64,000 nt of DNA, taken from the NCBI RefSeq assembly GCF_000757845.1, contig NZ_CP007753.1, positions 1,178,001-1,242,000 of the forward strand. The letters are read 5' to 3'. The notes under the pieces are model-generated. The model was not told the DNA's origin. It did no database searches and saw only the letters and a program-made list of their open reading frames with translations. Below, piece by piece: positions 7,692-60,441 of this stretch. A program made the translations under genes and the position numbers. Source of the stretch: Prochlorococcus sp. MIT 0604 (GTDB lineage: Bacteria; Cyanobacteriota; Cyanobacteriia; PCC-6307; Cyanobiaceae). The number at the start of each line of letters is the position of its first letter. The stretch's first letter is position 1.

Positions 7692-7760
7692 TCTTAGTAA
7701 AAACTATTTTTCCTCAAATTTAATACCACGAACTCAACCTAATTAAATTTTATTTACTCA

Positions 7761-8339: not shown

Positions 8340-8369
8340 ATGATAAATTAAATAAGGATAATTAAACAA

Positions 8370-8507
8370 ATGACTAAAAGAACTTTTGGCGGCACTTCAA
8401 GAAAAAGAAAACGTGTATCAGGTTTTAGAGTAAGAATGCGTTCTCATACTGGGAGAAGAGTTATTAAAAGTAGAAGACAAAAAGGTAGAGAAAGAATGGC
8501 TGTATAA
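8370..8507 (+). CDS. rpmH: 50S ribosomal protein L34
   Basis: A 45-residue, arginine/lysine-rich protein starting [20 protein letters not shown] and ending GRERMAV, with the [19 protein letters not shown] core diagnostic of L34. The start ATG at 8370 has AAGGA about 11 bases upstream. It is the first gene of the conserved rpmH-rnpA-(PH-domain gene)-yidC cluster; rnpA begins 12 bases after the stop. Confidence 0.97.
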
Positions 8508-8519
8508 CCTCAAATTTAA

Positions 8520-8906
8520 ATGGCCTTACCTAAGGATATGCGTTTAAAAGGTCATAGGACTTTTAATTATATTCATAAAAATTCCATAACATATCATGGA
8601 AAATTAATGACATTTAAAGTTGCAAGATCAAATCCAGAAATTCTCTTAACTCATAAGCTCACAAATAATTCAAACAAATTTAGAATCGCAATTGCTGTTA
8701 GCAAAAAGGTTTCAAAAAAAGCTGTAGAAAGAAATAAAATAAGAAGAATACTCCAAGAATGGTTATTAACAAACATTCAAAAAATTAATAACCACAAACC
8801 ATATTGGTTACTTGTTAACCTTAGGTTTGGAGATTTCTGCAATGATAAGAGTAGACTTTTGGAGGAATTTCAAAACTTAATGTTCAAATCTCGTCTAATC
8901 AAATGA
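8520..8906 (+). CDS. rnpA: Ribonuclease P protein component
   Basis: A 128-residue basic protein that assists the RNase P RNA in 5' maturation of tRNAs. It begins MALPKDMRLKGHRTFNYIHK and carries the conserved RNR-like region KKVSKKAVERNKIRRILQEW, the RNA-binding signature of RnpA. Length and position next to rpmH are normal. Its stop overlaps the start of the next gene by 4 bases (ATGA), implying translational coupling. Confidence 0.95.
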   Translation: MALPKDMRLKGHRTFNYIHKNSITYHGKLMTFKVARSNPEILLTHKLTNNSNKFRIAIAVSKKVSKKAVERNKIRRILQEWLLTNIQKINNHKPYWLLVNLRFGDFCNDKSRLLEEFQNLMFKSRLIK

Positions 8907-9316
8907 TTAACATGAATGAAGAAATCTTTTATGAAGGTGGGCCTGCAAAAAGTGATTTAATAATAAATCTACTTGCGGGAATAACTATCCTTGGATTACC
9001 TTTTACTTTTGCAGCAGTTGTTAGGGCTCTTTGGTTGAGATATAAAATTACAAATAAACGAATCTCAATAGACGGTGGATGGTTTGGTAAAAATAAAACA
9101 CAAGTTTCATTAAGTAACATCGAAGAAATCAGATCTATTCCAAGGGGATTCGGATCATATGGTGATATGGTTCTTATCCTAAATGACGGATCAAAGCTTG
9201 AAATGAAATCATTACCTTTATTCAGAGAGAAACAAAAGTTTATTGAAGAAAATATAAAAAAAAGATCACAAATCTCAGCCATCAACGAGGTAGAGGGATT
9301 TGCTACTAAATCCTAA
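8903..9316 (+). CDS. PH-domain (YdbT/YvbH-like) membrane protein
   Basis: A 137-residue protein with one hydrophobic segment (LIINLLAGITILGLPFTFAAVVRALWL, about 19-45) followed by a bacterial PH-like beta domain (YKITNKRISIDGGWFGKNKTQVSLSNIEEIRSI...MVLILNDGSKLEMKSL). This architecture is usual for the cyanobacterial gene between rnpA and yidC. The function is unknown, probably at the inner or thylakoid membrane. The start overlaps the rnpA stop; an alternative ATG lies 3 codons in. Confidence 0.8.
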   Translation: MINMNEEIFYEGGPAKSDLIINLLAGITILGLPFTFAAVVRALWLRYKITNKRISIDGGWFGKNKTQVSLSNIEEIRSIPRGFGSYGDMVLILNDGSKLEMKSLPLFREKQKFIEENIKKRSQISAINEVEGFATKS

Positions 9317-38694: not shown

Positions 38695-39582
38695 TTAATT
38701 AATTTTCCTATAAATTAACGTTTGATGATCAAAACATTTTTTTTCTAAAAAATCATGTTTATTTTTAGAAAATATTTTCCAATTTGCGACTAATTCATAC
38801 CCCAAATTATTCATAAAATCATTAAAAATAGTCTTCGAATGCCACTTATTTGGGAAAGTTGTATTTTTCATATTATTTTGAAGAACGTAAAAATTATTAC
38901 TAAAATTTGTGAATACACTATCAGAGAATACAAAATATTTACATCCTGATTTTGAGAAAGTGGACAAGTGTTCATTTAGATTATTTATATATTGAATGCA
39001 TGAACCAAAAAAAACGATATCTATTGGAACATTTTTTATATTTTTCGAAAAGTTTTTATCACTAAAAAAATATATATTTTCAGGAATTAGCATTTTTTCA
39101 TTACTTAAAATTCCTTTTATTTTTTTTATAAGGTTTTCTCTATCTATAATGAAAAAATTATTTTTTAACCTTTTTTCTTCAGTTAAGTGAATATATTGAG
39201 GATTAGTTGCTCCTCCATAATCAATAATATTTAACGCTTTTTCTGAATTTTTACAGAAAGACATACAAAGCAATAATAAAAATCCTCTCCTTTCATGACA
39301 ACCTAGACTCTCATTACATATATAATCATCTAGAAATTCATAATTTGATAATTTTTTACAGGTAGTTTCTGCGATTTTAGAATCGTATTTATTATTTAGG
39401 TAGTAAGAATTTTGATTAGTTTTTCTAAAAGCATCATTAAGGGATTGGAACTTACCTGAATAAGTGAATTTTGGGGTAAGATAATCTCTATTTTTTATGA
39501 ATAATATTAATTTAGTAATTATAGGAGGCATTAAATTCTTTATAGTTATTTTTAAGTAACGTAAAAGAGATTTTTCTTCCAT
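38695..39582 (-). CDS. TIGR04325-type putative methyltransferase
   Basis: A 295-residue protein with a SAM-methyltransferase-like core: NIIDYGGATNPQYIHL (motif I position), FFIIDRENL, and DIVFFGSCIQYINNL. The overall pattern (C-x-S-G-G-like motif replaced by DYGGATNP, and late HQTLIYRK) fits the TIGR04325 family found in polysaccharide clusters. The motif I glycines are fewer than in classical enzymes. It likely modifies a sugar of the surface glycan. Confidence 0.68.
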   Translation of the reverse strand: MEEKSLLRYLKITIKNLMPPIITKLILFIKNRDYLTPKFTYSGKFQSLNDAFRKTNQNSYYLNNKYDSKIAETTCKKLSNYEFLDDYICNESLGCHERRGFLLLLCMSFCKNSEKALNIIDYGGATNPQYIHLTEEKRLKNNFFIIDRENLIKKIKGILSNEKMLIPENIYFFSDKNFSKNIKNVPIDIVFFGSCIQYINNLNEHLSTFSKSGCKYFVFSDSVFTNFSNNFYVLQNNMKNTTFPNKWHSKTIFNDFMNNLGYELVANWKIFSKNKHDFLEKKCFDHQTLIYRKIN

Positions 39583-39699: not shown

Positions 39700-40371
39700 A
39701 TGTCTAAAGCAAGTAAATTAAGATTAGAATTACATGGTAAAAAGTTTAAGTATTCAACAAAAAAATATCCATTTAAAAAAATATTAGAGGAACTTTTTGG
39801 TGTACCACTCTACTCAATACATGAATGGTTAGGAGAATACAAGACATTTAATAAATATAATGATCAATCAACACTTGCTCACAAAGTTTTTTATGCAAAC
39901 TTTAATAAACATTTTAAATTTATTTTTGATGATTTTATAGCTAATGAAGTTTCAGATCTTATTACCCTACCATTTCATTATCAACTAATTCCTACCTTTA
40001 GGTTAGGACTACCAGGTAATAAATTCGTTGGAGAATTCCATAAAGATTCAAATTATAATCACCAAGATTATGAAATAAATTTTAATTTGGGATTAGAGAA
40101 CTACATAGGAGAGGCTTCTCTAAAAACACAACTAAATCCAAAAAGTGATAATTATATTTTTTTGGAATGTCCATATGGATATTTATTTTCTTTTAATCAT
40201 ATTGACTGCTTACATGGATCAGAAGTAAATAGTACAAATAAGACTATGGTATCATTCGATTTTAGGTTAGCATTAAAAGAAGAATATTCTGATTCAAAGG
40301 CAAAATCAATAACGAATAATACTAAATTCAATATTGGTTCTTATTTTTCTAAAAAATGCATTAACGACTAG
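39700..40371 (+). CDS. StrG-like / 2-oxoglutarate-Fe(II) dioxygenase-like protein
   Basis: A 223-residue protein with possible Fe ligands in EFHKDSNYNH (His-x-Asp) and CLHGSEVNSTNKTMVSFDFR (distal His, then Arg for 2-oxoglutarate), spacing typical of a cupin-fold dioxygenase. It resembles StrG of streptomycin gene clusters, whose role is not settled. Here it sits among dTDP-sugar genes, so a sugar hydroxylation is a reasonable guess. Start ATG at 39700. Confidence 0.62.
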   Translation: MSKASKLRLELHGKKFKYSTKKYPFKKILEELFGVPLYSIHEWLGEYKTFNKYNDQSTLAHKVFYANFNKHFKFIFDDFIANEVSDLITLPFHYQLIPTFRLGLPGNKFVGEFHKDSNYNHQDYEINFNLGLENYIGEASLKTQLNPKSDNYIFLECPYGYLFSFNHIDCLHGSEVNSTNKTMVSFDFRLALKEEYSDSKAKSITNNTKFNIGSYFSKKCIND

Positions 40372-42295: not shown

Positions 42296-42391
42296 TCTAA
42301 AATTTAAAAAATAATTAACAAAATAATTATAAATAACATTAATAAAAATTCTTATGCTAGTGCTAATATAAAAGGTGCAAAAATCGCATTG

Positions 42392-43732
42392 ATGAATTCG
42401 AAATTAATACCAAATTTATTTGATTGCAAGATCGCTATCATAGGTCAAGGTTATGTTGGTTGCCCTTTAACTGTAAATCTTGCAAAAGAACTAGATAATG
42501 TTAATAACTCTAGAAGCATTATTATTGGCTTTGATAAATCAAAGAAAAGACTAGAAGAATTGAGTAAAGGTATAGATACAACAAATGAGATTAATAATAT
42601 AGACTTTAATAAATTAAAGAATTTAGAATTTTCTAATTCTCTTGATAAATTATTAGATTGTGACATTTATATTGTTGCAGTGCCTACACCAGTTGATAAA
42701 TGCAATAAACCAGATTTAAATCTATTAGAAAATGCTACTAGATTGGTTGCTGAGCAAATATTAAAAAGTAAAGAGAGCAATTTTAAAAAAATTGTTATTT
42801 ATGAAAGTACTGTTTATCCAGGAGCAACAGAAGAGGTTTGTTTACCAATTTTATTGGAAATTACAAATTTAAAATTTCATGAGGAAATTTCAATTGCTTA
42901 TAGTCCTGAGAGAGTAAATCCTGGAGATAAAGAACATACATTAAAAGATATCAGCAAAATTGTCAGCGCTAGTGATCCAGAAAGTTTAGATTTGATTTAT
43001 AATTTATATTCATTAATTATTGAGGCTGAGGTATATAAAGCAAATTCAATTAAAGTTGCAGAGGCTTCAAAAGTTGTTGAAAATGTTCAAAGAGATTTAA
43101 ATATTGCACTCGTAAATGAGTTATCTATGATTTTTGAAAAACTTGACATAGATACATCTGAAGTTCTTGATGCAGCAAATTCAAAATGGAATTTTACAAA
43201 ATATCAACCGGGGCTGGTGGGTGGTCATTGCATTGGCGTAGATCCCTATTACTTAACATATAAGGCAGAACTTTCTGGTTATCATCCTGAAGTAATTTTA
43301 GCTGGCAGAAGAATTAATGACTCAATGGGTGATTGGATTGCAAACACTACAATCAAAAAATATATAAAATCCAAACCCAAACTATTATCTGAAATCAATG
43401 TTTTAATAATGGGTTTCACTTATAAAGCAAATTGTCCTGATATAAGAAATTCTAAAGTATATGACATATATAAAACTTTGGAAGAATATGGATGTAATAT
43501 TGATTTATATGAGCCAATAGCAAATCATTTGCTTATTAAGGAGTATTATAATATTAAGGTTACCAAAGAATATGATTTTAATTCGAAGTATGACATCATA
43601 ATAGTTGCTGTTGCACATAATGAATTTAAATCAAAAGATATTTCGTACTGGATATCTAAAACAAGAAAACATTCAATAATTGTAGACGTTAAAAACATTC
43701 TTCCAATTAATGAAAAAATTTGGAAAATATAA
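42392..43732 (+). CDS. UDP-N-acetylhexosamine dehydrogenase (WecC/TviB/WbpO-like)
   Basis: A 446-residue nucleotide-sugar dehydrogenase. KIAIIGQGYVGCPLTVNLAKEL is the Rossmann loop; AVPTPVDKCNKPDL, YESTVYPGATEEVCLP and the catalytic GLVGGHCIGVDPYYLTYKAE (Cys) are hallmarks of the TviB/WbpO group that makes UDP-GalNAcA or UDP-ManNAcA. This is a different family from the ugd at 21,600. It heads a co-directional run to 50,535. The ATG at 42392 is preferred over the TTG one codon before. Confidence 0.9.
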   Translation: MNSKLIPNLFDCKIAIIGQGYVGCPLTVNLAKELDNVNNSRSIIIGFDKSKKRLEELSKGIDTTNEINNIDFNKLKNLEFSNSLDKLLDCDIYIVAVPTPVDKCNKPDLNLLENATRLVAEQILKSKESNFKKIVIYESTVYPGATEEVCLPILLEITNLKFHEEISIAYSPERVNPGDKEHTLKDISKIVSASDPESLDLIYNLYSLIIEAEVYKANSIKVAEASKVVENVQRDLNIALVNELSMIFEKLDIDTSEVLDAANSKWNFTKYQPGLVGGHCIGVDPYYLTYKAELSGYHPEVILAGRRINDSMGDWIANTTIKKYIKSKPKLLSEINVLIMGFTYKANCPDIRNSKVYDIYKTLEEYGCNIDLYEPIANHLLIKEYYNIKVTKEYDFNSKYDIIIVAVAHNEFKSKDISYWISKTRKHSIIVDVKNILPINEKIWKI

Positions 43733-43843
43733 AATTTTTATTTTTTACATATATTAAATTTATCTAATTTAATCTCACAAAAATAAATTTGAGATTCGCC
43801 TAATTTAAACATGTTAGGATTAAGAATAACTAACAAATAATTA

Positions 43844-44857
43844 ATGAAAAATACATCATTATTTGTTGCAGAAATTGCTTTAAGTCATGAAGGTTCAGTA
43901 GGCAATGCTTGTGCTCTAATGGATTTAGCCAAAAATAATAATATTGATATTGTAAAATTTCAAGATCATTGGGCTAGATATGAATCTTCTAAAGATGAAG
44001 TATTTAGAGTTCCTATAGGTTTTGATAAAACAAGATATAATTATTGGGAAAGAACAGAATTTGATCAAACTGAGTGGTCACATATCTATGATTATGCAAA
44101 AAAAATTAACATTAAGATTGGATTTTCAGTTTTTTCACCACAAAGTTTTTTTAGACAAAAAAAGCTTGGTAATCATATTTGGAAGTTAGGTTCTGGAGAG
44201 TTGCTTAATAACGAATTAATTAATATTTTAATTAAAGAATTAAATAAGAAGGATGTCGTAATAATATCAACAGGTTTATGTGAATATTCTCATGCATTAA
44301 AGATAGCAGGAGAATTCTTAAGCGTAGTAAAAGAAGTCTTTATACTTGATTGTATTAGTGAATACCCATGCAATTATGCAGATTACTCTTTTAAAACATG
44401 GTTAGATCAAAGTTCTAAATTAAAAAAGATTAATTACGGTTTGTCAGATCATAGTGGAGAAATCTGGCCAACTGTTTTTTCATGGTCTTACGGATGCAAA
44501 ATGAATGAGTTTCATATAACTTTTGATAAAAAAATGTTTGGACCTGACCAAAAATCATCTTTGGATCCATCAGATTTAAAAAATCTTAATTATGCAAGAG
44601 AAGCTTTTAATATTATTTCAAAAAACAAAAAAAAGAAAATTTCTTCAAAAAGAAAAAATATGATAAATTTTTTTGGCAGAAGTATTGGTTTAAAGAATTC
44701 TTTATCTAAGGGACATATTTTAAGAAGAGAAGATTTATTAATGAGAAAACCGAATGGCGGCTTTTCATTTGCAAATTTGGAAAATATAATTGGTAAAAAA
44801 CTAAAAGTCGATGTAAATTTCAAAGAAATTTTAAAATCTGAACATTTTGAAAAATAA
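43844..44857 (+). CDS. neuB: N-acetylneuraminate synthase-family protein (NeuB-like, divergent)
   Basis: A 337-residue TIM-barrel enzyme plus C-terminal SAF domain, condensing a 6-carbon N-acyl sugar with PEP to a nonulosonic acid. Recognisable sites: FVAEIALSHEGSVGNA (diverged from the usual AEIG-NHNG), DIVKFQDHW, HIWKLGSGELLNNELI, IISTGLCEY, YGLSDHSG (metal His) and FHITFDKKMFGPDQKSSLDP (second metal His retained, the usual EKHFT altered). The SAF tail has SKGHILRREDLLMRKPNGGF. Length is normal. neuC follows 24 bases downstream. Which acid it makes is unknown. Confidence 0.85.
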   Translation: MKNTSLFVAEIALSHEGSVGNACALMDLAKNNNIDIVKFQDHWARYESSKDEVFRVPIGFDKTRYNYWERTEFDQTEWSHIYDYAKKINIKIGFSVFSPQSFFRQKKLGNHIWKLGSGELLNNELINILIKELNKKDVVIISTGLCEYSHALKIAGEFLSVVKEVFILDCISEYPCNYADYSFKTWLDQSSKLKKINYGLSDHSGEIWPTVFSWSYGCKMNEFHITFDKKMFGPDQKSSLDPSDLKNLNYAREAFNIISKNKKKKISSKRKNMINFFGRSIGLKNSLSKGHILRREDLLMRKPNGGFSFANLENIIGKKLKVDVNFKEILKSEHFEK

Positions 44858-44881
44858 TAATAATTTCGCACTATAAATTTT

Positions 44882-46051
44882 ATGAAAATAAAAATAATGT
44901 TTTCTGTACTAAGCAGAGCTAACTACTCAAGAGTAAAAAGCTTGATAATAGAATCATTTAAAGATGATTATATTGATCCAATTGTAATAATCGGATGTGG
45001 AGCTATTTGCGAAGAGTATGGAAGTATTATAAATGAATGCAAAAAAGATGGTATTGAAATTCATGAGTCAATTAGCATCCTTATGCATGAAAAATCAAAA
45101 GAAAATATGATAAGAACAACCGCATTAGGAATGATAGATTTTAGCAGAATTTTGAATAAATATCATCCAGATATAGCAATAACTATTGCAGATAGATATG
45201 AAACAATTAGTTTTGCAATTTCATGTTCCTTTATGAATATTCCTTTAATTCATCTTCAAGGAGGCGAGCCAACAGGAAGCATTGACGATAAAGTAAGAAA
45301 TTCAATAACTCAGCTTGCTGATTATCACTTGGCCTGCACTAAAGACGCTAGAGATAGATTAATTAAATGGGGAGAGTCTAAAGAAAGAGTTTTTAATATT
45401 GGATGTCCATCTCTAGATCATATAGAGAAAACTAAAAATATTAAAGACTTAAAATCAAAAATCAACCAAATTAATTTAAAAAATAATGTAGAAATTAACA
45501 TAGAAAAAAATTATTTAGTTTTGCTTTTTCATCCAGACACAAATAAATCTCATCAAGAATTTGAAATAGTTATAAAGGCAGTAAAAGACTTTTGCGAAGA
45601 AAAAATAATTGATTTAGTTATCCTTAATCCTAATCCAGATTTTGGATCAAAAGAAATTAAAAAAATAATAGAATCTATAAATCCTGAAAAATCTAATACT
45701 AATAATTTAAAAAATAAAATAATTATCTTAAAAAATTTAAATAGTTACGAGTATATTAATTTGATACAGGGAGCAGAGATCCTTGTTGGGAATTCATCTT
45801 CAGGGATAAGAGAAAGTTCATTTCTTGGGATCAAATCATTAAATATTGGCAGCCGACAAAAGTTTAGATATAAATGTGAAAATGTATTAGATGTTGATAT
45901 TTGTTATGAGTCAATATACGAAGGCTTAGAGAATAGACTTTTAATAGAAAATCCAAAGGAAAATTATGCTTATGGTGACGGAAACAGTTCAAAAAAAATA
46001 CTTGATCTTTTAAAAAAAATAAAGTTCACAATTAAAAATACAAAAGTATAG
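44882..46051 (+). CDS. neuC: UDP-N-acetylglucosamine 2-epimerase, hydrolysing (NeuC-like)
   Basis: A 389-residue GT-B-like hydrolysing epimerase that releases a free 2-epimer (ManNAc or a dideoxy analogue) from UDP, supplying NeuB. IADRYETISFAISCSFMNIP and LIHLQGGEPTGSIDDKVRNS are its UDP/active-site signatures, and VGNSSSGIRESSFLGIKSLN is the uracil-ribose-binding region. Full length. It lies between neuB (24 bases) and a 2-hydroxyacid dehydrogenase (2 bases). Confidence 0.88.
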   Translation: MKIKIMFSVLSRANYSRVKSLIIESFKDDYIDPIVIIGCGAICEEYGSIINECKKDGIEIHESISILMHEKSKENMIRTTALGMIDFSRILNKYHPDIAITIADRYETISFAISCSFMNIPLIHLQGGEPTGSIDDKVRNSITQLADYHLACTKDARDRLIKWGESKERVFNIGCPSLDHIEKTKNIKDLKSKINQINLKNNVEINIEKNYLVLLFHPDTNKSHQEFEIVIKAVKDFCEEKIIDLVILNPNPDFGSKEIKKIIESINPEKSNTNNLKNKIIILKNLNSYEYINLIQGAEILVGNSSSGIRESSFLGIKSLNIGSRQKFRYKCENVLDVDICYESIYEGLENRLLIENPKENYAYGDGNSSKKILDLLKKIKFTIKNTKV

Positions 46052-46053
46052 AT

Positions 46054-46995
46054 ATGCAATATAACTACTACATTAGTGAAATTGAAAATTTTCCAACTCA
46101 ATTTATTAACTTTATTGCAAAAAAAGAAAAAAAAATATTGAATGAAACCAAAATCAAAAATAAAGCTGAAATTCTTTTTATAAGACTTAAATATAAAATA
46201 GACAAAAAGTTTTTATCCGATTTTGATAATCTCAAGGTAATTTGTACAGCCACTACTGGTATAACTCATATTTGTAAAGAGTTATTGGAAGAGAAAAATA
46301 TAAAATTAATATCATTGGCTGGAGAAGAAAATTTCCTAAAAGATATAAAACCCACCGCTAATTTAGCATTATCGATGATATTAAAAGCACAATCAAATAT
46401 TTTAGATTCAGCAATTTCAGTTTATGAAGGAATATTTGATAGAAGTAATTATTTTAGAAAAACATTTGAAGATTCTATTGTTGGGATACTAGGTATGGGA
46501 AGGTTAGGAATTTTAGTTAGTGAATATTTAATTAAATTAGGATTTAAGGTTTATTATTTTGATAAAAAGAATATCCCATGTTTTAATTCTAAATTAATCA
46601 AGTGTGAATCCATAAATGATTTATTCCTAAAGTGTCAGATAATATCCATACATATTAATTATGAAAAACACAACGATAATCTGATTAATAGAAACCTTTT
46701 ATCAATTAAGCCTCCATATAAACTAATTAATACAAGTCGTGGTGAAATATTCCGAGCAGATGAGATTGAATTTTGTTTAAAAAAAAATCTTTTAACTAGT
46801 TATTTTACAGACGTATTAGAGGATGAACCATTTAAGAGTAAAGATGGAATTAAAAAATCAAAAATATGGAACTTACAAAAAAGATATGGGTTAAATTCAA
46901 TTTTCATAACTCCTCACATTGGAGGGGCTTGTTGGACTAGTCTTTATAAATGCGAAACATTCATTATTCAAAAACTTGTAAAGCAACTCCAATAA
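46054..46995 (+). CDS. D-isomer-specific 2-hydroxyacid dehydrogenase family protein
   Basis: A 313-residue NAD-dependent oxidoreductase. The NAD loop is VGILGMGRLGILVSEYL; catalytic residues appear as Arg in INTSRGEIFRADE, Glu in VLEDEPF and His in FITPHIGGACW. The family reduces 2-keto acids or oxidises 2-hydroxyacids. A member inside a nonulosonate/uronate sugar operon, only 2 bases after neuC, is unusual; it may act on a keto-acid side group of the glycan or on its precursor. It could equally have an unlinked role. Confidence 0.82.
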   Translation: MQYNYYISEIENFPTQFINFIAKKEKKILNETKIKNKAEILFIRLKYKIDKKFLSDFDNLKVICTATTGITHICKELLEEKNIKLISLAGEENFLKDIKPTANLALSMILKAQSNILDSAISVYEGIFDRSNYFRKTFEDSIVGILGMGRLGILVSEYLIKLGFKVYYFDKKNIPCFNSKLIKCESINDLFLKCQIISIHINYEKHNDNLINRNLLSIKPPYKLINTSRGEIFRADEIEFCLKKNLLTSYFTDVLEDEPFKSKDGIKKSKIWNLQKRYGLNSIFITPHIGGACWTSLYKCETFIIQKLVKQLQ

Positions 46996-47032
46996 AAATA
47001 ATTTATTTACTTTATAAAGTCATTGACTTATT

Positions 47033-47770
47033 ATGGTAATCTATAAAAAAAAGATAATGGGTAATACAGGAGATAACATTTTAAGTGAATCAGGACTTTG
47101 GTCATTCGGAGGGGATACACCCTCTAAATTTAATAAACACGTATCCAAATCTGTACCTCTTTATAAAGAAGGGCATGATTTAATTTGTGGCATGGCAGAA
47201 TTTTTTGTACCTCAAAATGGGAAGGTCCTTCATATTGGATCAAGTACAGGCATTTTGACAAACAAAGTTGCCAAAACCTTAAAAAAAAGAGACGCACAAA
47301 TCATAGGTTTGGAGATTGAGCCAAATATGATTAAAGAAGCAAAACTAATGGATTACGAAACAAATATTGAATACATAAATGATGATATTACTACCTTTGA
47401 TATTGGCGAAAATTGTAATAATTTAATAATCTCATACTATACAATTCAATTTATACATCCTTCAATGAGACAATTAGTTGTCGAGAAAATCTATAAGTCA
47501 TTGATGTGGGGTGGAGCATTCATTATGTTTGAGAAAGTTAGAGGTTCTGATGCAAGATTTCAAGACATTTTTAACTCTTTTTATCAAGACTTTAAATCGA
47601 AACAAGGCTACTCTGCAGATGAAATACTTGAAAAGCAGAGATCCTTAAAATCTATTCTGGAACCTTTTTCAAGGCAAGGCAATATAGATATGCTAAAAAG
47701 AGCTAACTTTGTAGATATTGAATCAATATTAAAATATGCATGCTTTGAAGGTTTTTTATCAATAAAATAA
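47033..47770 (+). CDS. CmoA-like (carboxy-SAM synthase-type) enzyme
   Basis: A 245-residue class I SAM-fold protein that resembles CmoA along its whole length: a lead WSFGGDTPSKFNKHVSKSVP, motif I VLHIGSSTGILTNKVA, SYYTIQFIHPSMRQ, GGAFIMFEKVRG, FYQDFKSKQGYSADEILEKQ and the tail CFEGFLSIK. CmoA makes carboxy-S-adenosyl-methionine from SAM and prephenate. The arginine of QRSLKS (Arg203) aligns with the CmoA arginine thought to bind the extra carboxylate. No CmoB is seen here; the neighbour is another methyltransferase. A second ATG at 47057 is possible. Confidence 0.72.
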   Translation: MVIYKKKIMGNTGDNILSESGLWSFGGDTPSKFNKHVSKSVPLYKEGHDLICGMAEFFVPQNGKVLHIGSSTGILTNKVAKTLKKRDAQIIGLEIEPNMIKEAKLMDYETNIEYINDDITTFDIGENCNNLIISYYTIQFIHPSMRQLVVEKIYKSLMWGGAFIMFEKVRGSDARFQDIFNSFYQDFKSKQGYSADEILEKQRSLKSILEPFSRQGNIDMLKRANFVDIESILKYACFEGFLSIK

Positions 47771-47842
47771 GAATTTTTATGTATCTCAAAATCTCGATTA
47801 TAAAGGTTATAAAATTCAATTAATTAATAAATTTTTATTATC

Positions 47843-48760
47843 TTGAAAGAAAATAAAGTAGAAATAAATATCGGCAAAGAAATATATGAAAAACGATGGT
47901 CTAATTCTCTTAAGAATGGGGATTATGATATTTTATCAAGAGATGAAAACCTAGATAACCAAGTTCAGTATTTTTACAATAGGTATTGTGAATTCATATT
48001 AAATAAAATAAAAGCCCATTTCAAAAATTACCCATATAAAAATTTAAGAATTCTTGAAATAGGTTGTGGAAGAGGAACAGCTTCAATTTATTTAAGTAAA
48101 AAATTAAATTGTAAAGTTACAGGGATTGATTTCAGTAAAAATTCTATTGAAATAGCTAAAAAAAACGCTAAATTTCATTTTTCAGAGGCAGAATTTTTTA
48201 TAGCAGATTTATTTGAACCAAAAACAATTTTAGAAAAAACAAAAAATACTAATAAGGAGTTTGATATTATTATTAGTTTAGGTGTACTAGAGCATATTGA
48301 ACAATTAAATAAATGTTTTCAAATTCATAATGAGTTATTAGATCATAATGGCTTGTTTTGCGCAATGATCGTTCCAGAAAAAAAATCAATACAAAATTAT
48401 TTTTCTTTCATTAACAGACTTTTATCATCTATCGCATTATTAATTTCTCCAAAATTCAGAGATAAATTTTCGCATCTAGATAAGAAAACATTATCAAAAA
48501 CGAAAGATGTTTATAGATCCTATAAATCTGCAAAATATTTTAAGGATAGCCTTATCAAGGCAAACTTTATAAATGTAGTAACTATAGAATCAAATCCTTA
48601 CCCTACTCTAAGACCCCTTAATAGATTTTTTGAAAAATTTGTAGTAAAAACTTATATGATTATTGAATATTTGTTTTATGGATTATTCAAAAAATCTATT
48701 TTTTTCAACTGCAGTACAAATTTCTCAAGGTGTCATTTTTTAATAGGAACTAAAAATTAA
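47843..48760 (+). CDS. Class I SAM-dependent methyltransferase
   Basis: A 305-residue methyltransferase with motif I ILEIGCGRGTASIYLSKKL, VTGIDFSKNSIEIAKKNA (ribose-binding Asp) and DIIISLGVLEHIEQL. N-terminal MKENKVEIN starts at a TTG at 47843 (no in-frame ATG nearby upstream). It sits 72 bases after the CmoA-like gene and 5 bases before asnB. It probably methylates (or, if it uses carboxy-SAM, carboxymethylates) a sugar or glycan intermediate. Confidence 0.82.
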   Translation: MKENKVEINIGKEIYEKRWSNSLKNGDYDILSRDENLDNQVQYFYNRYCEFILNKIKAHFKNYPYKNLRILEIGCGRGTASIYLSKKLNCKVTGIDFSKNSIEIAKKNAKFHFSEAEFFIADLFEPKTILEKTKNTNKEFDIIISLGVLEHIEQLNKCFQIHNELLDHNGLFCAMIVPEKKSIQNYFSFINRLLSSIALLISPKFRDKFSHLDKKTLSKTKDVYRSYKSAKYFKDSLIKANFINVVTIESNPYPTLRPLNRFFEKFVVKTYMIIEYLFYGLFKKSIFFNCSTNFSRCHFLIGTKN

Positions 48761-48765
48761 AATAA

Positions 48766-50535
48766 ATGTGTGGTTTTTTTATATCTCCTTCATCATTTGA
48801 TCAAATAAAAGCAAATTTTTTATTCGAGAAATATATTGCTTATCGGGGAGTTCTCCCTAAAAAAGAGTTGGTATTTAATCACTATAATTTTAAATTTTCC
48901 AGATTACCAATAGTTGACGTTGGTTCATATCAAAATCAACCCTACCAATATAAAAACCATGTTTTAGTTTTCAACGGTGAATTATATAATTATCAAAATA
49001 TAAGACAATTATTAGAAAAAAAATATAAGGTTCAATTCACAAGTAAAACCGATGTTGAAGTTTTCCTTAAAGGATTCTTAACATTAGGTCCAAAAAAATT
49101 TTTTAAAATCGCTTGCGGTATGTGGGCTTATGTAATAAGTGACAAATTAGGGAACTTTTTTTGGGGAAGAGATGAGTACGGCATTAAGCCATTATTTTTT
49201 ATGAAAAAAAATTATGAATTATTTTTCTCATCCAGTCAACCAGCTCTTCTAGAGACGTTTGATAACCATAAATTAAATAAAAACATTTTAAGAAGATTTA
49301 TAGTAACTGGTTTTCAAGACCCCAATAGTTTTTCTTTTTATGATAACTGTGAGTTAGTAAAACCTGGAAATTGCTATTACTTTAATTATGACAAAAAAGA
49401 AATTCAGAAAGAGATTTGTCTATTTTCTGATGAGAAAATTTTAGATAAATCATTAAGAGAAGTTGTCGATGAAGCAATAATTTCTCAATATCCTAAGGAA
49501 GTAAATTCTTCAATAGCCTTAAGCGGAGGTCTTGACAGTTCAATAATACTTCATGTTTTATCTAGAAATAATTTAAAATTTACTTCTTTTTCTTTAGATC
49601 TTTTGAATTCAAAAAAAGAAAAATCTCTCATTTTTCAAACAATAAAACAATATAAAAAACAACATCAATTTATTAAAACTGAATCATCGGAATTATTGAA
49701 TTCATGCAAGGAAATAATTTTTAATTTTGGCCAGCCATTAAGATCATGTCAACCATTAAATCAGTATTCTCTAAGAAAAGTAGCTTTACAATACAATAGT
49801 AAAGTTTTTTTTACAGGTGATGGCTCGGACGAAATTTTTGGAGGTTATACACAAGGCTTCTTCTTTTTCTTAAAACAACTCATTGATAAAGGTACTAAAG
49901 AAAATCTAATAAGAAATAAATTATTTGATTTTAAAGATCTTATAAATTTGAAGGATGAATTTCTTAAGGAGGATATAAAAAAATTAATTGAAAGAAAAAC
50001 AAATATTTTTAATCAAGATCTGACTTGGCAAAATATTTTTAAAAAAGAAGAATTCACTCTTCCAAAAACTCCTGAAGATTTAAAATCTTACTGTGATTTT
50101 AGACTTTTCATACACCCAATGCCCTATTGGCTAATGACAGAAGATATTTTAAGCTTAGTAAATGGTATTGAAACTAGAATTCCCTTTCTAGATCAAAGAA
50201 TAGTCTATAAAAGTAAATTTTTAGAAAGAGAAAATTTTTATTTTAATGGTAAAAACAAATATCACTTAAGAAACAGCTTTTCTGATCTTCCTGATCATAT
50301 TAAAAATTGCAAAAATAAATTTCCTCGACCCTCTGACACTACTGAATTTATTTTCGAAAATGAGATTTCAGATTCTATTGAAAAATTCTTAAAATCTGAT
50401 GACTTCAAAGAACTTTTTCAAATAAATCATGACTTCTTCTTAGAAGTTTTTAAATCTGATAAAGATAGAAAATGTTCTTTAAGATCTGATAATTGGTTTA
50501 GGATCTTATCAAGCTACCTTTTCTTAAATAAATAA
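48766..50535 (+). CDS. AsnB-type glutamine amidotransferase (possible uronic-acid amidation)
   Basis: A 589-residue enzyme with the N-terminal nucleophile Cys2 (MCGFF), glutaminase core FNGELYNYQN and FFWGRDEYGIKPLFF, and the synthetase half with PP-loop ALSGGLDSS and FTGDGSDEIFGGY. The usual RGPD loop is YRGVLPKK here. Members in O-antigen loci (WbpS-type) amidate hexuronic acids rather than aspartate. Next to a UDP-HexNAc dehydrogenase this is a reasonable role; a true asparagine synthetase cannot be excluded. The start ATG is forced by the required Cys2. Confidence 0.85.
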   Translation: MCGFFISPSSFDQIKANFLFEKYIAYRGVLPKKELVFNHYNFKFSRLPIVDVGSYQNQPYQYKNHVLVFNGELYNYQNIRQLLEKKYKVQFTSKTDVEVFLKGFLTLGPKKFFKIACGMWAYVISDKLGNFFWGRDEYGIKPLFFMKKNYELFFSSSQPALLETFDNHKLNKNILRRFIVTGFQDPNSFSFYDNCELVKPGNCYYFNYDKKEIQKEICLFSDEKILDKSLREVVDEAIISQYPKEVNSSIALSGGLDSSIILHVLSRNNLKFTSFSLDLLNSKKEKSLIFQTIKQYKKQHQFIKTESSELLNSCKEIIFNFGQPLRSCQPLNQYSLRKVALQYNSKVFFTGDGSDEIFGGYTQGFFFFLKQLIDKGTKENLIRNKLFDFKDLINLKDEFLKEDIKKLIERKTNIFNQDLTWQNIFKKEEFTLPKTPEDLKSYCDFRLFIHPMPYWLMTEDILSLVNGIETRIPFLDQRIVYKSKFLERENFYFNGKNKYHLRNSFSDLPDHIKNCKNKFPRPSDTTEFIFENEISDSIEKFLKSDDFKELFQINHDFFLEVFKSDKDRKCSLRSDNWFRILSSYLFLNK

Positions 50536-50541
50536 AATATT

Positions 50542-50640
50542 TTGAATACATCTATTGAAATTTCGAAAATCTATTATATTTTATTATTAATATTGAGTAT
50601 TTTAGGATTTAATTTTTATTTCCTTTATTTTAGTAATTAG
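50542..50640 (+). CDS. Possible 32-residue single-helix membrane peptide
   Basis: A short frame (TTG at 50542) encoding MNTSIEISKIYYILLLILSI then LGFNFYFLYFSN, i.e. a polar start and one membrane helix. It lies tightly between asnB (stop 50535) and a glycosyltransferase start (50644). No homologue is recognised and AT-rich DNA easily yields hydrophobic frames, so this is only a candidate. Confidence 0.2.
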   Translation: MNTSIEISKIYYILLLILSILGFNFYFLYFSN

Positions 50641-50643
50641 AAA

Positions 50644-51744
50644 ATGAAAATTGCCATACCAAAATACGATATAAATATAGGTAGTCAAAGAATTCCTTTT
50701 TTTGTTTATAAAAATTTACTTGAAAAATATTACTCTGTAGAGTTTGTAGGATACGATGAAATTAAAGAATCAAATATAGTATTTGTATATTCAGGATTTA
50801 AAAATATAAATACACTTATTGCGAAAAATAAAAAGGCTAAATTTATAATGTTTAAACCTCATCTAGAAATTCCGATAGCTTGTTCAGATACTTCATTAAT
50901 AAAAAGATTATTAACTTTTATTTTTTATTTTTTTAAGATTAGATTTAATAACGAAAAAAAAAATCAAATCGAAAATAATAGTCTTGCTGACCTTTTGATT
51001 TGTGATACCCCTAGAATTTCAAGGTTTTTTAGTTCTAGAGGATATAAAACTGTATATTGTGCTTTGATAGATAATTTTGATAATAAAATAATAAGCTCAA
51101 GAAATAATTTAGACTGTAATAAAGATGTTTTTAATATCCTTTTTATAGGAAACCTTTCACATTTCAATAGCAATATAGCAAATCTAATAAGAGCAATAAG
51201 TGTAAGCAATTTAAAAAACAAATATAATGTTGTTATTAATTGTCTTTCAGGAAAATCCAAAAATAATAAAATATTTTATAAAAAAAATAAAATTTCTATT
51301 AATTACATCGAATATAATGATTTTAATTTAAGTGAGCTTTTAATAAATTGCGATTTAGGATGGGTACCCAACTCATACCCATTATCAAGTTTGATTAATA
51401 ATAATTTCATTAAAGCAATATTTTGCGGTGGGACTCAATATTATGACATTTTTAATCTTCAAAAATTCTCATCAAATGCTGGAAGATGTTTAATATTTGC
51501 TCAATATGGAATACCTTTCTTAACTCATCCAAATGAGGAAACATCATTTACTTTTAATTTTCTTAATAACTACTCATTTTACGAATCAGAAAAAGAGTTA
51601 GCTTATCATCTAGAAAACTTCTCTTCCAAGTCTTATAGAAATAAAGTAAAAGAAATTTTATTTTCTAATTTCAATTATGAAAAATTTGCTATTAGAGAAG
51701 TAGGTAAACTTTATAATGCAATAAATATAACTACAAAAAAATAG
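50644..51744 (+). CDS. Putative GT-B glycosyltransferase
   Basis: A 366-residue protein with a GT-B rhythm: N-terminal Rossmann-like half with MKIAIPKYDINIGSQRIPFF, then NILFIGNLSHFNSNIANLIR as the inter-domain strand, LLINCDLGWVPNSYPL and RCLIFAQYGIPFLTHPNEE at the donor site. No exact family motif can be named. It follows asnB on the same strand, within the island. The donor and acceptor sugars are unknown. Confidence 0.65.
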   Translation: MKIAIPKYDINIGSQRIPFFVYKNLLEKYYSVEFVGYDEIKESNIVFVYSGFKNINTLIAKNKKAKFIMFKPHLEIPIACSDTSLIKRLLTFIFYFFKIRFNNEKKNQIENNSLADLLICDTPRISRFFSSRGYKTVYCALIDNFDNKIISSRNNLDCNKDVFNILFIGNLSHFNSNIANLIRAISVSNLKNKYNVVINCLSGKSKNNKIFYKKNKISINYIEYNDFNLSELLINCDLGWVPNSYPLSSLINNNFIKAIFCGGTQYYDIFNLQKFSSNAGRCLIFAQYGIPFLTHPNEETSFTFNFLNNYSFYESEKELAYHLENFSSKSYRNKVKEILFSNFNYEKFAIREVGKLYNAINITTKK

Positions 51745-51850
51745 TCTTTAAATTATTATTCAAAAAGATTTTCAAATAAAAAATATTGAGTTAAAAATTT
51801 GTAAAAAATTTACATATTATTATTGTAGAATATTCTAAATTAATGATTTA

Positions 51851-53368
51851 ATGAAAACGATATTTATTGTTGCTAAGGAAGATACTATTGGTCTAGCTGC
51901 ATCAAGTTTTGATTTAATAAAAGAATCAACTCCAAATTATGATCCAATAATTATTTTAATCACTCCCCTTGAAGAAATAATATTCAAAAAAAAAATTAAA
52001 ATATATTTAAAATCTCGAAAGTATATTTCCTGTTGGCAAGGTGTTAAGAAGTATTTAAATAAAAATGACTTAGGAAGAAGATTAAAAGAATTAGATGAGA
52101 AACTATTTAATAAAATTCAATTTGAAAGTTTAACTGATCCTTCTCAAATATTTGATATAAATAAAAGACTTCAATTTAAGAAAAAAAATCTTAATTACTT
52201 CAAAAATTATTTATATGCTTGTTCTTTACATTTACATGATATTTTATCAAATAATAAAAATTCTATTATTATTGATTTTAGTATTTATGACATAAGTCGA
52301 TCTATATTATTAAGTGTAAGTAATTTTTATGATATAAGTTATAGGTCCATAATTAGAAGTCGTTATAAGAATTATATTTTTAGAACAGAGAGACTAGGTG
52401 AGGATGTTGCAAATATTTTAGCTGTAACAAAACATAATTTAGAAGAAATAAAAAAAGCAAAAAAAGAAATTGAAATTTATAAAAAATCAAATGATATTAC
52501 GCAAAATGTAGAAAAAAAATTTATTATTAAAAAATTCTCAATAAAAGAAACCCAAAAAACTATCTTATTTAATATACGTAGAACATTATCATATATAGTG
52601 AGATTTATAAACCAAATAATATTTAGTATTAATTCTCCAAAATTAATAAAATATCAACGTTACTTAATTGGAGATAACTTCGCTATTTGCATAAATGGAA
52701 TTTTAAAAACATTTAGAATTTTATACAGATTATGGAAACCAACAAAACAATATAATTTTATTTTTAAAAATTTCATTTACTTTCCAATGCCTAATAGTGT
52801 TGAAAATAGTGATTCAAGATTTAATAACGGATTTTTATCTGAGAGTTATTTAATAAATTTACTTAGACCATATCTTGGTTTTTTTAAATTGGTATGTAAA
52901 GATCATAGATCAATGTTAGGAGATAGAACATTTCAAGATGAGAGAATTATCTCATCAATTAATAACTTAGTTTACATATCAGAATGGAATAATAATTGGC
53001 AAACATCAGATCCACTAAATTTGATAAGAAATTCTGATTTAACTATTTGCATTTCTGGGACTTCTGGATTAGAGGCTGCTCTTTTAGGAAAACCTATAGT
53101 AATCCTTGGAAAACCTATATATGGTGAATACTTTAAATTAAAGGGCAAAAATTCACAGAGTGTCTATGAAATAGTAAATGATCTGAAAAGAGGAAGTTTT
53201 TCTTTAGAAAATTATCTTATCCCCATCGATCTTCTAGCTAAATATATATCTTGTAGTATTAAAAAAGGGTTGCCAATAGATGTTTATTATTTAATAATTG
53301 ATCCATTTTCAAAAAGAAATTCTCCCAACTTATCAAAATTGATTAATTTTCTTTTAAAAGATAACTAA
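51851..53368 (+). CDS. Capsule polysaccharide synthesis-like (KpsC/KpsS-type) protein
   Basis: A 505-residue protein. The C-terminal half has the family-like NLVYISEWNNNWQTSDPLNL and TICISGTSGLEAALLGKPIV with ILGKPIYGEYF, the typical GxSGLEA-LGKP site of Kps-type Kdo transferases and related capsule proteins. The N-terminal half is basic and poorly conserved. In capsule systems KpsC/S build the Kdo linker on lipid; here the acceptor is unknown. A 106-base AT-rich gap precedes it. Confidence 0.68.
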   Translation: MKTIFIVAKEDTIGLAASSFDLIKESTPNYDPIIILITPLEEIIFKKKIKIYLKSRKYISCWQGVKKYLNKNDLGRRLKELDEKLFNKIQFESLTDPSQIFDINKRLQFKKKNLNYFKNYLYACSLHLHDILSNNKNSIIIDFSIYDISRSILLSVSNFYDISYRSIIRSRYKNYIFRTERLGEDVANILAVTKHNLEEIKKAKKEIEIYKKSNDITQNVEKKFIIKKFSIKETQKTILFNIRRTLSYIVRFINQIIFSINSPKLIKYQRYLIGDNFAICINGILKTFRILYRLWKPTKQYNFIFKNFIYFPMPNSVENSDSRFNNGFLSESYLINLLRPYLGFFKLVCKDHRSMLGDRTFQDERIISSINNLVYISEWNNNWQTSDPLNLIRNSDLTICISGTSGLEAALLGKPIVILGKPIYGEYFKLKGKNSQSVYEIVNDLKRGSFSLENYLIPIDLLAKYISCSIKKGLPIDVYYLIIDPFSKRNSPNLSKLINFLLKDN

Positions 53369-53399
53369 GAAAATTAAGTAATTTAATTTAAATTGGTTT

Positions 53400-54155
53400 T
53401 TAATTATATTTGCGAAAAATCATTAATTTACTCCTAAATATTCCAAAAAAGTAACAAAATAATTTTGATCTAGATAAAAATCTTGTTAATTTTGGTCCCA
53501 TATATTTTATGGTTAAACTATTTTCTTCATAAATAAATTTCAAATTATATTTACTGAAAAGATAAATTAATTTTCTCTTACTAATATAATTAGTTGACTT
53601 TTTCATGTATTGATAAATTTCTTCTGCATTATTAAAACTAGCATTACATAATCTCAAATTGAACATCACATTATAATAAAATTTATTGATTATTAAACCC
53701 CCAAAAGGTACTCCAGTATGAGCCTCAAAAATTGCAGTTCTGGCAGGGAAATAATGTAAACAATAACCTCCTTGTTGCAAAATTCTTGCATTTTCTTTAA
53801 TAAATTCTTCTAGATTAATAATATGTTCAATAACCGATGAAGAGAAAGCAAAATCAATGCTATTTGACTTGCAAGGCCATGAATAGCATTGATTCTCTTC
53901 TAAAATTTCAGATCTTGACTTTCCATTGGAATTTATAAGTTTAATTTGATTATTATTAATTAAAATTTTTTTGTAATTTCCTTCCTTAAATTCAACATCT
54001 ATCCCAAAACCGGATTTACCTTTACTTATCAAGTAGTGAGTAAGATTTCCATTTCCACAGCCAATTTCTAACCATTTTATATGACTTTTTAAAAAGTAAT
54101 ATTCAGAAAATTTAATAAGTAATTTACCAAACTGTTCTAATTTTAAATTACTCAT
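53400..54155 (-). CDS. Class I SAM-dependent methyltransferase
   Basis: A 251-residue methyltransferase: motif I WLEIGCGNGNLTHYLISKGK, acidic FGIDVEF, and FAFSSSVIEHIINLEEFI followed by ARILQQGGYCLHYFPA. It is a complete protein that faces the KpsC/S-like gene tail to tail at 31 bases. It likely modifies a sugar, but no substrate can be named from sequence. It is followed upstream (on its strand) by a 434-base region without an intact gene. Confidence 0.8.
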   Translation of the reverse strand: MSNLKLEQFGKLLIKFSEYYFLKSHIKWLEIGCGNGNLTHYLISKGKSGFGIDVEFKEGNYKKILINNNQIKLINSNGKSRSEILEENQCYSWPCKSNSIDFAFSSSVIEHIINLEEFIKENARILQQGGYCLHYFPARTAIFEAHTGVPFGGLIINKFYYNVMFNLRLCNASFNNAEEIYQYMKKSTNYISKRKLIYLFSKYNLKFIYEENSLTIKYMGPKLTRFLSRSKLFCYFFGIFRSKLMIFRKYN

Positions 54156-59613: not shown

Positions 59614-60441
59614 TTATTTATTTCTATATTGGCTAGTTGAAACTGATTTATTTGTGAGTTTGTAAATAAGTTTTTTTGCGAATGTGCGAGTTAATGCATT
59701 TAATTTAAGATAAGTTCCCTTAACAAATTCTTTTTTAAAACCACGAAATGATGTTGAGTGGTAATAATTTGTGCCTGATGGTGATTCTTTAGAAAAATAA
59801 TAGTTACTTATACACTTTCTACGTTTAGTTTCTGATTTAATTTTTTTTACTCCATGTAACGATCTATTATCTGTTCTCATAATGACAAGTCTATTAAAAG
59901 CACAGCTAATTTCATCTGCTTTATTTTTAATACCATTTGGATAAAGTACTAATTCACCCCCATCCTTAATGGGATTAAAATCTTTATTTACGTAATAAAG
60001 AAGATTTAACCTTCGAAAGTTTTGCATATTTCTATCGTGTGAATTATCAATATGTGGATTCAGAAAACATCCTTTACTCATACTCGATATTCCACCTGCG
60101 TATAATTCTGGATCGCCAATTAAGTTTTTTATTGAAGTAATTTCTCCTATTATTTTTATTACATTTTCTTCTTGAAAGGAATAAATACATTCCTCTATTA
60201 AATTCTGTTTATCAATAAAATGAAAGCCTATATATTTATTTTCTTGAGGACCATTTAAATGAGTTAGCTCATTTTCAAATGGGAAATAGTCACTTAATTT
60301 CGTCGCAATTTTAATTGGTAATAAATCTTCTATAACAAGAAAGTTAATTGCACTTGATTCTTCATATTTGTTTTTCAAATAATTTATTCCAAGTTCTTTA
60401 AGTCTTTTAATTATGAGTGTAGAGATCTCATATCTATTCAT
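59614..60441 (-). CDS. 2-oxoglutarate-Fe(II) oxygenase family protein
   Basis: A 275-residue protein with a jelly-roll-type Fe site: NPHIDNSHDRNMQNFRRLNL (His-x-Asp), GGELVLYPNG, NRLVIMRTDNRSLHGVKKI (distal His) and an Arg further on (RRKCISNYYFSKES) for 2-oxoglutarate. This arrangement fits prolyl-4-hydroxylase-like 2OG oxygenases. In a glycan island it may hydroxylate a sugar. 163 AT-rich bases separate it from the GT2 gene downstream. Confidence 0.8.
   Translation of the reverse strand: MNRYEISTLIIKRLKELGINYLKNKYEESSAINFLVIEDLLPIKIATKLSDYFPFENELTHLNGPQENKYIGFHFIDKQNLIEECIYSFQEENVIKIIGEITSIKNLIGDPELYAGGISSMSKGCFLNPHIDNSHDRNMQNFRRLNLLYYVNKDFNPIKDGGELVLYPNGIKNKADEISCAFNRLVIMRTDNRSLHGVKKIKSETKRRKCISNYYFSKESPSGTNYYHSTSFRGFKKEFVKGTYLKLNALTRTFAKKLIYKLTNKSVSTSQYRNK

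Follow-up and report, generated by a model that had tools for sequence, protein, structure and literature searches.

Carboxy-S-adenosylmethionine (carboxy-SAM) serves the cmo5U modification of transfer RNA (tRNA) through the CmoA/CmoB pair, and natural uses outside tRNA have already been published, namely for 3-thiaglutamate, for a microcin C-like peptide and for phage DNA (PMC10491745, PMC12783734). In the 3-thiaglutamate (tgl) system of Pseudomonas, TglE is reported to form carboxy-SAM and TglF to move the carboxymethyl group, and the MccS/MccB system of a Bacillus microcin C-like cluster is described as a carboxy-SAM synthase with a methyltransferase-fold domain unlike CmoB (review PMC10491745). 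The CmoA of Synechococcus phage S-B43 (SpCmoA), which belongs to a CmoA-CmoX-CmoY system for DNA 5-carboxymethylcytosine, has likewise been shown to make carboxy-SAM (PMC12783734). Here we analyse a CmoA-superfamily protein of 245 amino acids (aa) from Prochlorococcus sp. MIT 0604, encoded at 47,033–47,770 on the forward strand of a 64,000-nucleotide stretch of contig NZ_CP007753.1 (the window, to whose positions all coordinates refer; the whole genome is this one contig of 1.78 Mb).

Homology, clade membership, residue pattern, predicted fold and context together strongly suggest the synthase reaction, and we regard it as very probable that 47,033–47,770 encodes a carboxy-SAM synthase of the TglE type. 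The enzyme would take CO2 from prephenate to carboxylate the SAM methyl group, so that carboxy-SAM and phenylpyruvate are formed, and a transferase of the same glycan cluster, most simply the class I methyltransferase encoded at 47,843, would move the carboxymethyl group to a surface-glycan sugar, i.e., a nonulosonate or uronate building block. The added carboxylate may then be converted to an amide by the AsnB-like enzyme encoded at 48,766, which is a speculative step. That the synthase feeds the carboxymethylation of a surface sugar, by whichever transferase, seems to us to have somewhat better than even chances. Among the open-licence papers listed, judged by title and opening of the abstract, we found no report of O- or N-carboxymethyl (or carboxamidomethyl) sugars on bacterial surfaces, and the open-licence literature likewise gave no report of carboxy-SAM or CmoA serving polysaccharide or O-antigen carboxymethylation. 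Surface-sugar carboxymethylation by carboxy-SAM is plausible and without a report found there, as an earlier reading of this DNA (the original prediction) had assumed, whereas the use of carboxy-SAM outside tRNA is by itself not new.

A TglE-type relative of CmoA

The likeness to CmoA extends over the whole protein. The CmoA model TIGR00740 matches residues 19–243 (1.3e-34, 120 bits) and the top sequence match in the PDB is E. coli CmoA (4gek, 4.7e-24), both far beyond chance, and the segments that had been quoted as CmoA-like, WSFGGDTPSKF..SVP and FYQDFKSKQGYSADEI, are present. The 120 bits stay below the curated TIGR00740 cut-off of 193.3, and identity to E. coli CmoA is 26% in the alignment; by its sequence, the product is a homologue of CmoA from end to end, but not a CmoA orthologue.

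An AlphaFold2 model built from 33 sequences (predicted local distance difference test, pLDDT, 93.0) has a CmoA-like predicted fold over the full length. Its best Foldseek match is CmoA 4gek (template modelling scores 0.84 and 0.89, 28% identity), and VIA-align places it on the same structure with a Z of 30.0 and a root mean square deviation of 1.9 over 223 aligned positions. Since other class I methyltransferases score near CmoA in VIA-align, trailing it at Z 27 to 20.6 among the 50 matches listed, the predicted fold by itself leaves the chemistry undecided. The comparison with CmoA profiles and structures bears out the full-length likeness that the original prediction had claimed, but with a score under the CmoA cut-off.

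In a tree of 85 sequences, the window protein falls with the TglE proteins of Pseudomonas and other relatives into a clade of 73 (support 100/98), which is separate from the CmoA proteins with the E. coli-type Arg199 as well as from the CmoA-like proteins of phages and the rest of those from plasmids. This clade holds 65 sequences from the genome_contigs collection, six from genomes of the same family, one from a Burkholderia plasmid and the window protein, with the family protein L077 outside. The SpCmoA branch is very long and its placement in this tree is unsure. A second tree of 43 hand-picked sequences kept the clade at 100/99 (31 sequences), again with the window protein and now with a viral protein (L111) inside.

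Seven Pseudomonas relatives lie in a tgl cluster. One of these loci (L010) encodes a TglI that matches the solved chain 8HCI at 4.8e-105 and the model NF058584, as well as an M50 protease and a LanB-like protein; members of the TglI and LanB clusters were found in 7/7 of the Pseudomonas loci. In the tgl cluster of genome G492, TglI is near-identical to 8HCI (3.4e-173 over the whole length), and its TglE is 82% identical to that of L010 and 49% to the window protein, which is thus about 50% identical to TglE. The viral contig (L111:2036-3825) has its TglE-clade synthase gene overlapping a DNA C5-methyltransferase gene by 31 bp. In this methyltransferase the SPPC motif is present, and arginine also occupies the position aligned with SpCmoX Arg350, the residue reported to contact the carboxymethyl group (PMC12783734); when seven DNA methyltransferases near CmoA-like genes were compared with SpCmoX, the arginine was found in L111 and L104 only and was missing from those of StaphF1, L098 (two), L101 and L105. 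Judging from this residue, viruses may draw on the TglE clade as well. Because two unrelated carboxymethylation systems appear to draw on this clade, carboxy-SAM synthesis is the best guess for the window protein, and the clade shared with TglE, together with its viral member beside a CmoX-type gene, supports the original idea of a carboxy-SAM synthase outside tRNA modification.

In E. coli CmoA, Arg199 forms a salt bridge with the carboxylate (PMC3663124), and it is described as the only residue to contact it (PMC4482062). The same paper reports that recombinant CmoA retained its carboxy-SAM during purification. A conserved Arg203 had been proposed as its counterpart in the window protein. 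This has to be corrected: in the alignment, which is free of gaps from the GY motif onward, E. coli Arg199 faces Gln202, Arg203 stands one column late, opposite Ser200, and Lys206 occupies the column of Glu203 (codons 202–206, 47,636–47,650, forward strand), so that Arg203 is ruled out as the Arg199 equivalent. Nor is it strictly conserved. An alignment of E. coli CmoA with 73 sequences (65 genome_contigs relatives, 7 from other family genomes and the window protein) reads S 30, T 29, A 8, Q 2 and K, M, L and R one each at the Arg199 column, R 52, K 10 and others 11 at the Ser200 column, and K 67, R 3, A 2 and E 1 at the Glu203 column. In the wider set of 85, the sequences with Arg199 all have Glu at column 203 (5/5), and those without it have K or R there in 78/80. 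The pattern, which we derived in this analysis and to which Lys206 conforms, has, in the alignments, the appearance of a charge swap over roughly one turn of the helix.

At columns 199, 200 and 203 the window protein reads Q-R-K, TglE T-R-K and SpCmoA E-K-R, the latter taken from the product of phage S-B05, whose cmoA gene has 100% DNA identity to the S-B43 gene. Since the verified SpCmoA and TglE lack Arg199 too and have a basic residue at column 203, the missing Arg199 is not fatal to a synthase function, and Lys206, possibly with Arg203, would probably hold the new carboxylate in place of Arg199, from a position about one helical turn away. The rule that Arg199 marks a carboxy-SAM enzyme is corrected by the verified phage synthase and the TglE clade, which do without it, and a basic residue at column 203 offers a testable diagnostic for the annotation of many CmoA-like genes.

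The surface glycan as proposed target

As the original prediction had stated, the gene sits between a D-2-hydroxyacid dehydrogenase gene (46,054–46,995; 2-Hacid_dh_C 4.4e-26), 37 bp away, and the class I methyltransferase gene, which follows after 72 bp, inside a nonulosonate/uronate sugar cluster. Upstream on the same, forward strand lie genes for a nucleotide-sugar dehydrogenase with TviB as the nearest model (42,389–43,732; TIGR03026 355 bits, above cut-off; TviB 421 bits, below the cut-off of 592), a NeuB-family nonulosonate synthase (43,844–44,857; PF03102 8.2e-35; 186 bits, below the NeuB_NnaB cut-off of 399.65) and a hydrolysing NeuC-type UDP-N-acetylglucosamine 2-epimerase (44,882–46,051; TIGR03568 316 bits, above the cut-off of 235.9), so that NeuB, NeuC and nucleotide-sugar enzymes stand within one stretch. 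Farther upstream the cluster holds a PseC/LegC-like aminotransferase, with scores under the cut-offs of those models. A homologue of the 2-hydroxyacid dehydrogenase was found at 1e-10 in only 1/72 of the relatives' loci described below, and the idea that it might reduce phenylpyruvate in concert with the synthase was dropped.

The 72 loci comprise those of 65 genome_contigs relatives, close ones only and selected by six peptide patterns, and seven from other family genomes with larger surrounding stretches, one of which (L088) holds the out-of-clade protein L077. Among the relatives with a TglE-type gene is a Ruegeria isolate (L038). The next gene downstream was examined in 57/72, i.e., 55 co-directional neighbours (at least 100 aa, start at most 300 bp past the last sense codon), the TglF gene of L023 and the neighbour in L087 (323 bp); the other 15 had no downstream frame (3), the next gene on the other strand (7) or a gene farther off (5). 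In 30/62 cases, a co-directional neighbour overlaps the last sense codon or begins no more than 20 bp from it. The next gene matches NF043040, a generic class I methyltransferase model, in 20/57 and TIGR04371, a putative sugar O-methyltransferase, in 13/57 (the two sets are not proven disjoint), and by Pfam Methyltransf_12 in 19/57 and Methyltransf_23 in 18/57. Among 80 co-directional control genes lying one or two places farther downstream, NF043040 and TIGR04371 fall outside the 25 most-matched families, which means at most three each, and the pseudaminate cytidylyltransferase model TIGR03584 matches 7/80. Single checks of the next gene gave TIGR04371 in L084 and L007, TIGR04325 in L088, a methyltransferase in L034 and a short UbiG match in L064, with no family match in L013, L068, L082 and L083. 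The general order of a TglE-type gene followed by a methyltransferase-fold gene is recurrent among the relatives, being present in about half of those examined. Among the upstream genes, D-glucuronyl C5-epimerase domains (9/41), glycosyltransferases of group 1 (7/41), NeuB (3/41) and Methyltransf_9, the CmoB family (4/41), were found. Many relatives thus show what had been noted for the window, namely a location among surface-glycan genes and a methyltransferase-fold gene next downstream.

The strongest evidence for a glycan comes from outside the window, from SAR11 loci that bear NeuB and both halves of the TglE/TglF pair. In L060 and L062, TglF homologues start 10 and 7 bases after the TglE-type gene, counted from its last sense codon (phmmer with the L010 TglF as query, 4e-47 and 1e-61), in L061 a TglF homologue (2e-53) lies about 3.3 kb downstream, and all three loci contain genes of the NeuB cluster. 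Six further loci (L005, L008, L011, L022, L024 and L041) have a methyltransferase family weakly related to TglF directly after the gene, and the cluster contains NeuB, a cytidylyltransferase and a nucleotide-sugar dehydrogenase (the one copy scanned, that of L005, has a CBS domain). Given the synthase, we consider a glycan target moderately probable from this context.

In L016 (4702-10036) and similar Campylobacterales loci, D-glucuronyl C5-epimerase-like proteins, the TglE-type gene and, at the gene end, a NanM-type putative sugar O-methyltransferase make up, in that order, a recurrent three-part unit.

The alternative that the enzyme makes carboxy-SAM for another target, be it tRNA through an unrecognised transferase, a small molecule or a peptide, is unlikely in our view. 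It gains from the fact that the known targets of carboxy-SAM are tRNA, a peptide-bound thiol, a peptidyl nucleotide and DNA (PMC10491745, PMC12783734), and that the candidate transferases beside the relatives span several subfamilies. The absence of CmoB claimed by the original prediction was, however, confirmed by a genome search, in which PF08003 had no match in MIT 0604 (two candidates scored; the control matched 6/14 genomes including E. coli), and a CmoB-dependent tRNA role is thereby rejected, just as DNA carboxymethylation of the CmoX kind is by the lack of a PF00145 (DNA C5-methyltransferase) match in the genome. The gene is moreover patchy, being present in 8/300 genomes of the family including MIT 0604, unlike a tRNA-modification gene, and it lies inside the nonulosonate/uronate cluster. 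A peptide target is further disfavoured by a Pfam scan of the ten genes at 42,389–54,155, in which families for ribosomally synthesised and post-translationally modified peptides (RiPPs) had no match (0).

In comparison with the described systems, the window protein shares with TglE the clade, the lack of Arg199 and basic residues at columns 200 and 203, and, if our reading is right, it would likewise act with a relative of the class I methyltransferases. Unlike in the tgl cluster, the context is that of a surface glycan, and the ten scanned neighbours include neither a LanB-type peptide aminoacyl-tRNA ligase (PEARL), a DUF692 protein (TglH), TglI nor a RiPP recognition element partner, the remaining genome not having been searched for the PEARL, TglH and TglI. 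With CmoA/CmoB it has the fold and the full-length homology in common, but not the score above the cut-off, Arg199 or a CmoB in the genome. The phage S-B43 system resembles the window in its layout of synthase, methyltransferase-type enzyme and asparagine-synthetase-like ligase and in a synthase without Arg199; it differs by its DNA C5-methyltransferase, of which none was found in MIT 0604. MccS/MccB, which we set beside the window pair by description only, is similar in combining a carboxy-SAM synthase with a methyltransferase-fold domain unlike CmoB and different in its peptidyl-nucleotide target.

A further alternative, slightly less likely again, is that the protein encoded at 47,033 has the CmoA fold but no longer the carboxy-SAM chemistry, and works as an ordinary sugar methyltransferase with SAM. 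Gln at the Arg199 column and the score under the CmoA cut-off would fit such an enzyme, as would the replacement of E. coli Asn132 by Tyr in 69/73 sequences and the structural ranking, in which CmoA is followed by CysG and BelI, methyltransferases bound to SAM or S-adenosylhomocysteine, at a Z of about 27 compared with 30.0 for CmoA. TglE, however, with the same clade and residue pattern, is a reported carboxy-SAM synthase (PMC10491745), SpCmoA is verified without Arg199 (PMC12783734) and an in-clade member sits with a CmoX-type transferase. A self-sufficient methyltransferase would, in addition, not need the methyltransferase-fold gene that often comes next.

Candidate transferases and a possible amide step

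The class I methyltransferase of 305 aa (47,843–48,760, forward strand; Methyltransf_31 7.3e-19) is the candidate sugar carboxymethyltransferase by adjacency, and it occupies the position at which many relatives have methyltransferase-fold genes. Given the synthase and a glycan target, its role as the transferase is a tentative assignment, at slightly less than even chances. A conserved pairing of the two genes, which the original prediction had suggested checking, was not borne out: homologues at E 1e-10 occur in 0/72 of the relatives' loci, the matches at E 1e-4 are generic methyltransferases only (best L034, 6.7e-10), and the 299 other family genomes contain no full-length homologue at E 1e-10, the other eight matches being partial and inside frames of 780–892 aa. 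The gene is hence present at full length in MIT 0604 only among the 300, a conserved pair is rejected and the pair itself is not recurrent; viral relatives of 47,843 were not found either. The protein is also unlike TglF, as it has no zinc ribbon and a different layout, the L010 TglF does not match it by phmmer at 1e-4 and no CxxC pair is seen in the alignment. A cluster-22 protein of L005 matches it weakly (1.8e-5). Taken together, glycan carboxymethylation via carboxy-SAM as originally proposed stands on the synthase clade, the lack of a CmoB and the glycan context, but not on the Arg199 equivalence or on a conserved pairing with 47,843.

Several points weigh against our overall interpretation. 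For the synthase, Arg199, the sole carboxylate contact in E. coli CmoA (PMC4482062), is missing; the charge-swap pattern is not absolute, with the viral L111 protein having both Arg199 and Lys203; and the clade members L075 and L076 carry Ala at column 203. As regards the transferase, 47,843 lacks a conserved association with the CmoA-like gene, a feature specific for carboxy-SAM was not found in it in an uncertain six-sequence alignment, in which the CmoB carboxy-SAM pocket (Lys91, Tyr200, Arg315) was compared with 47,843, TglF and cluster-22 proteins, and its single-sequence structure model (pLDDT 33.4) was left unused. With respect to the neighbourhoods, about one locus in two has no recognised methyltransferase as the next gene, and glycosyltransferases (4/57), carbamoyltransferases (2/57) and, in L009 and L035, RecO and RadA also occur in this place. 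The counts are not independent, as the seven loci from Pseudomonas, and likewise some ten from Campylobacterales, are closely related among themselves, and methyltransferases are common in glycan loci.

Within the glycan interpretation, another transferase of the cluster could act instead, for example the TIGR04325-type enzyme (38,695–39,582, reverse strand; 2.5e-17, 62.9 bits, below the cut-off of 80) or the methyltransferase at 53,400, with 47,843 being an independent sugar methyltransferase. The TIGR04325 match itself, a TIGR04325 enzyme directly after the CmoA-like gene in L088, whose protein keeps Arg199, and the missing conservation of 47,843 beside the family would agree with this. We nevertheless hold it to be the least likely of the alternatives considered, as 47,843 is adjacent and co-directional whereas 38,695 lies on the opposite strand more than 7 kb away. 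A NanM-type partner elsewhere in the genome was dismissed for want of a TIGR04371 match, with a weak control (3/14 genomes, none over the cut-off).

In another genome of the family (G142), the L088 locus (7348-9060) encodes a CmoA-like protein of only distant similarity (32% identity) in which Arg199 is retained; some 50 bp on comes the gene of the TIGR04325 methyltransferase (75.7 bits compared with the cut-off of 80).

The AsnB-like, glutamine-hydrolysing amidotransferase of 589 aa (48,766–50,535, forward strand; Asn_synthase 2.7e-34, GATase_7 9.6e-23) starts five bases past the end of the 47,843 gene and is a candidate for the amidation step. Homologues at 1e-10 are found in 8/72 loci, directly after the gene in L065, in second or third place in L064 and L062, and on the opposite strand in L083 and L084. 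O-antigen loci contain AsnB-like enzymes of the WbpS type that form uronamides. As in those loci, an AsnB-like enzyme is found here in a cluster with a nucleotide-sugar dehydrogenase, and a uronamide-forming role, which unlike the proposed amidation would account for the 48,766 gene without any carboxymethyl group, is by analogy an equally good reading. Some relatives of phage CmoY are reported to carry a glutaminase domain, and the AsnB-like protein of the window has one as in the second-largest ligase cluster described there, unlike SpCmoY (PMC12783734).

If the family serves glycans, these would add a further class of carboxy-SAM targets to tRNA, two peptide-type natural products and phage DNA. 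Our interpretation would predict O- or N-carboxymethyl, possibly carboxamidomethyl, substituents on bacterial surface sugars, and some annotated putative sugar O-methyltransferases would be misnamed and in fact carboxymethyltransferases. One could go further and regard the TglE clade as a widespread synthase family, much of it in glycan loci, that feeds exchangeable transferases (TglF-like, NanM-type or plain class I) for surface-sugar carboxymethylation, with some loci, MIT 0604 included, then amidating the product by an AsnB-like enzyme as a glycan counterpart of phage CmoA-CmoX-CmoY. This wider proposal is possible but, at present, falls short of being probable.

Further loci and window genes

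On a plasmid of Scytonema sp. NIES-4073 (L104:2974-4663), an Arg199-type CmoA-like gene stands beside the gene of a DNA C5-methyltransferase with SPPC and the CmoX arginine, and judging from these motifs a cyanobacterial carboxymethylcytosine system is possible. On a megaplasmid of Burkholderia stagnalis (L081:7078-12938), a DUF692 gene overlaps at its end with a TglE-clade gene, after which come genes for a methyltransferase-domain protein of 867 aa and a radical SAM protein; this is possibly a peptide cluster that uses carboxy-SAM. In the window itself, the protein encoded at 39,700–40,371 has a weak match to TIGR04324, a 2-oxoglutarate (2OG)-Fe(II) oxygenase of a 'sporadic carbohydrate cluster' (1.4e-4, 21.5 bits compared with a cut-off of 150), and a second 2OG oxygenase is encoded at 59,614–60,441.

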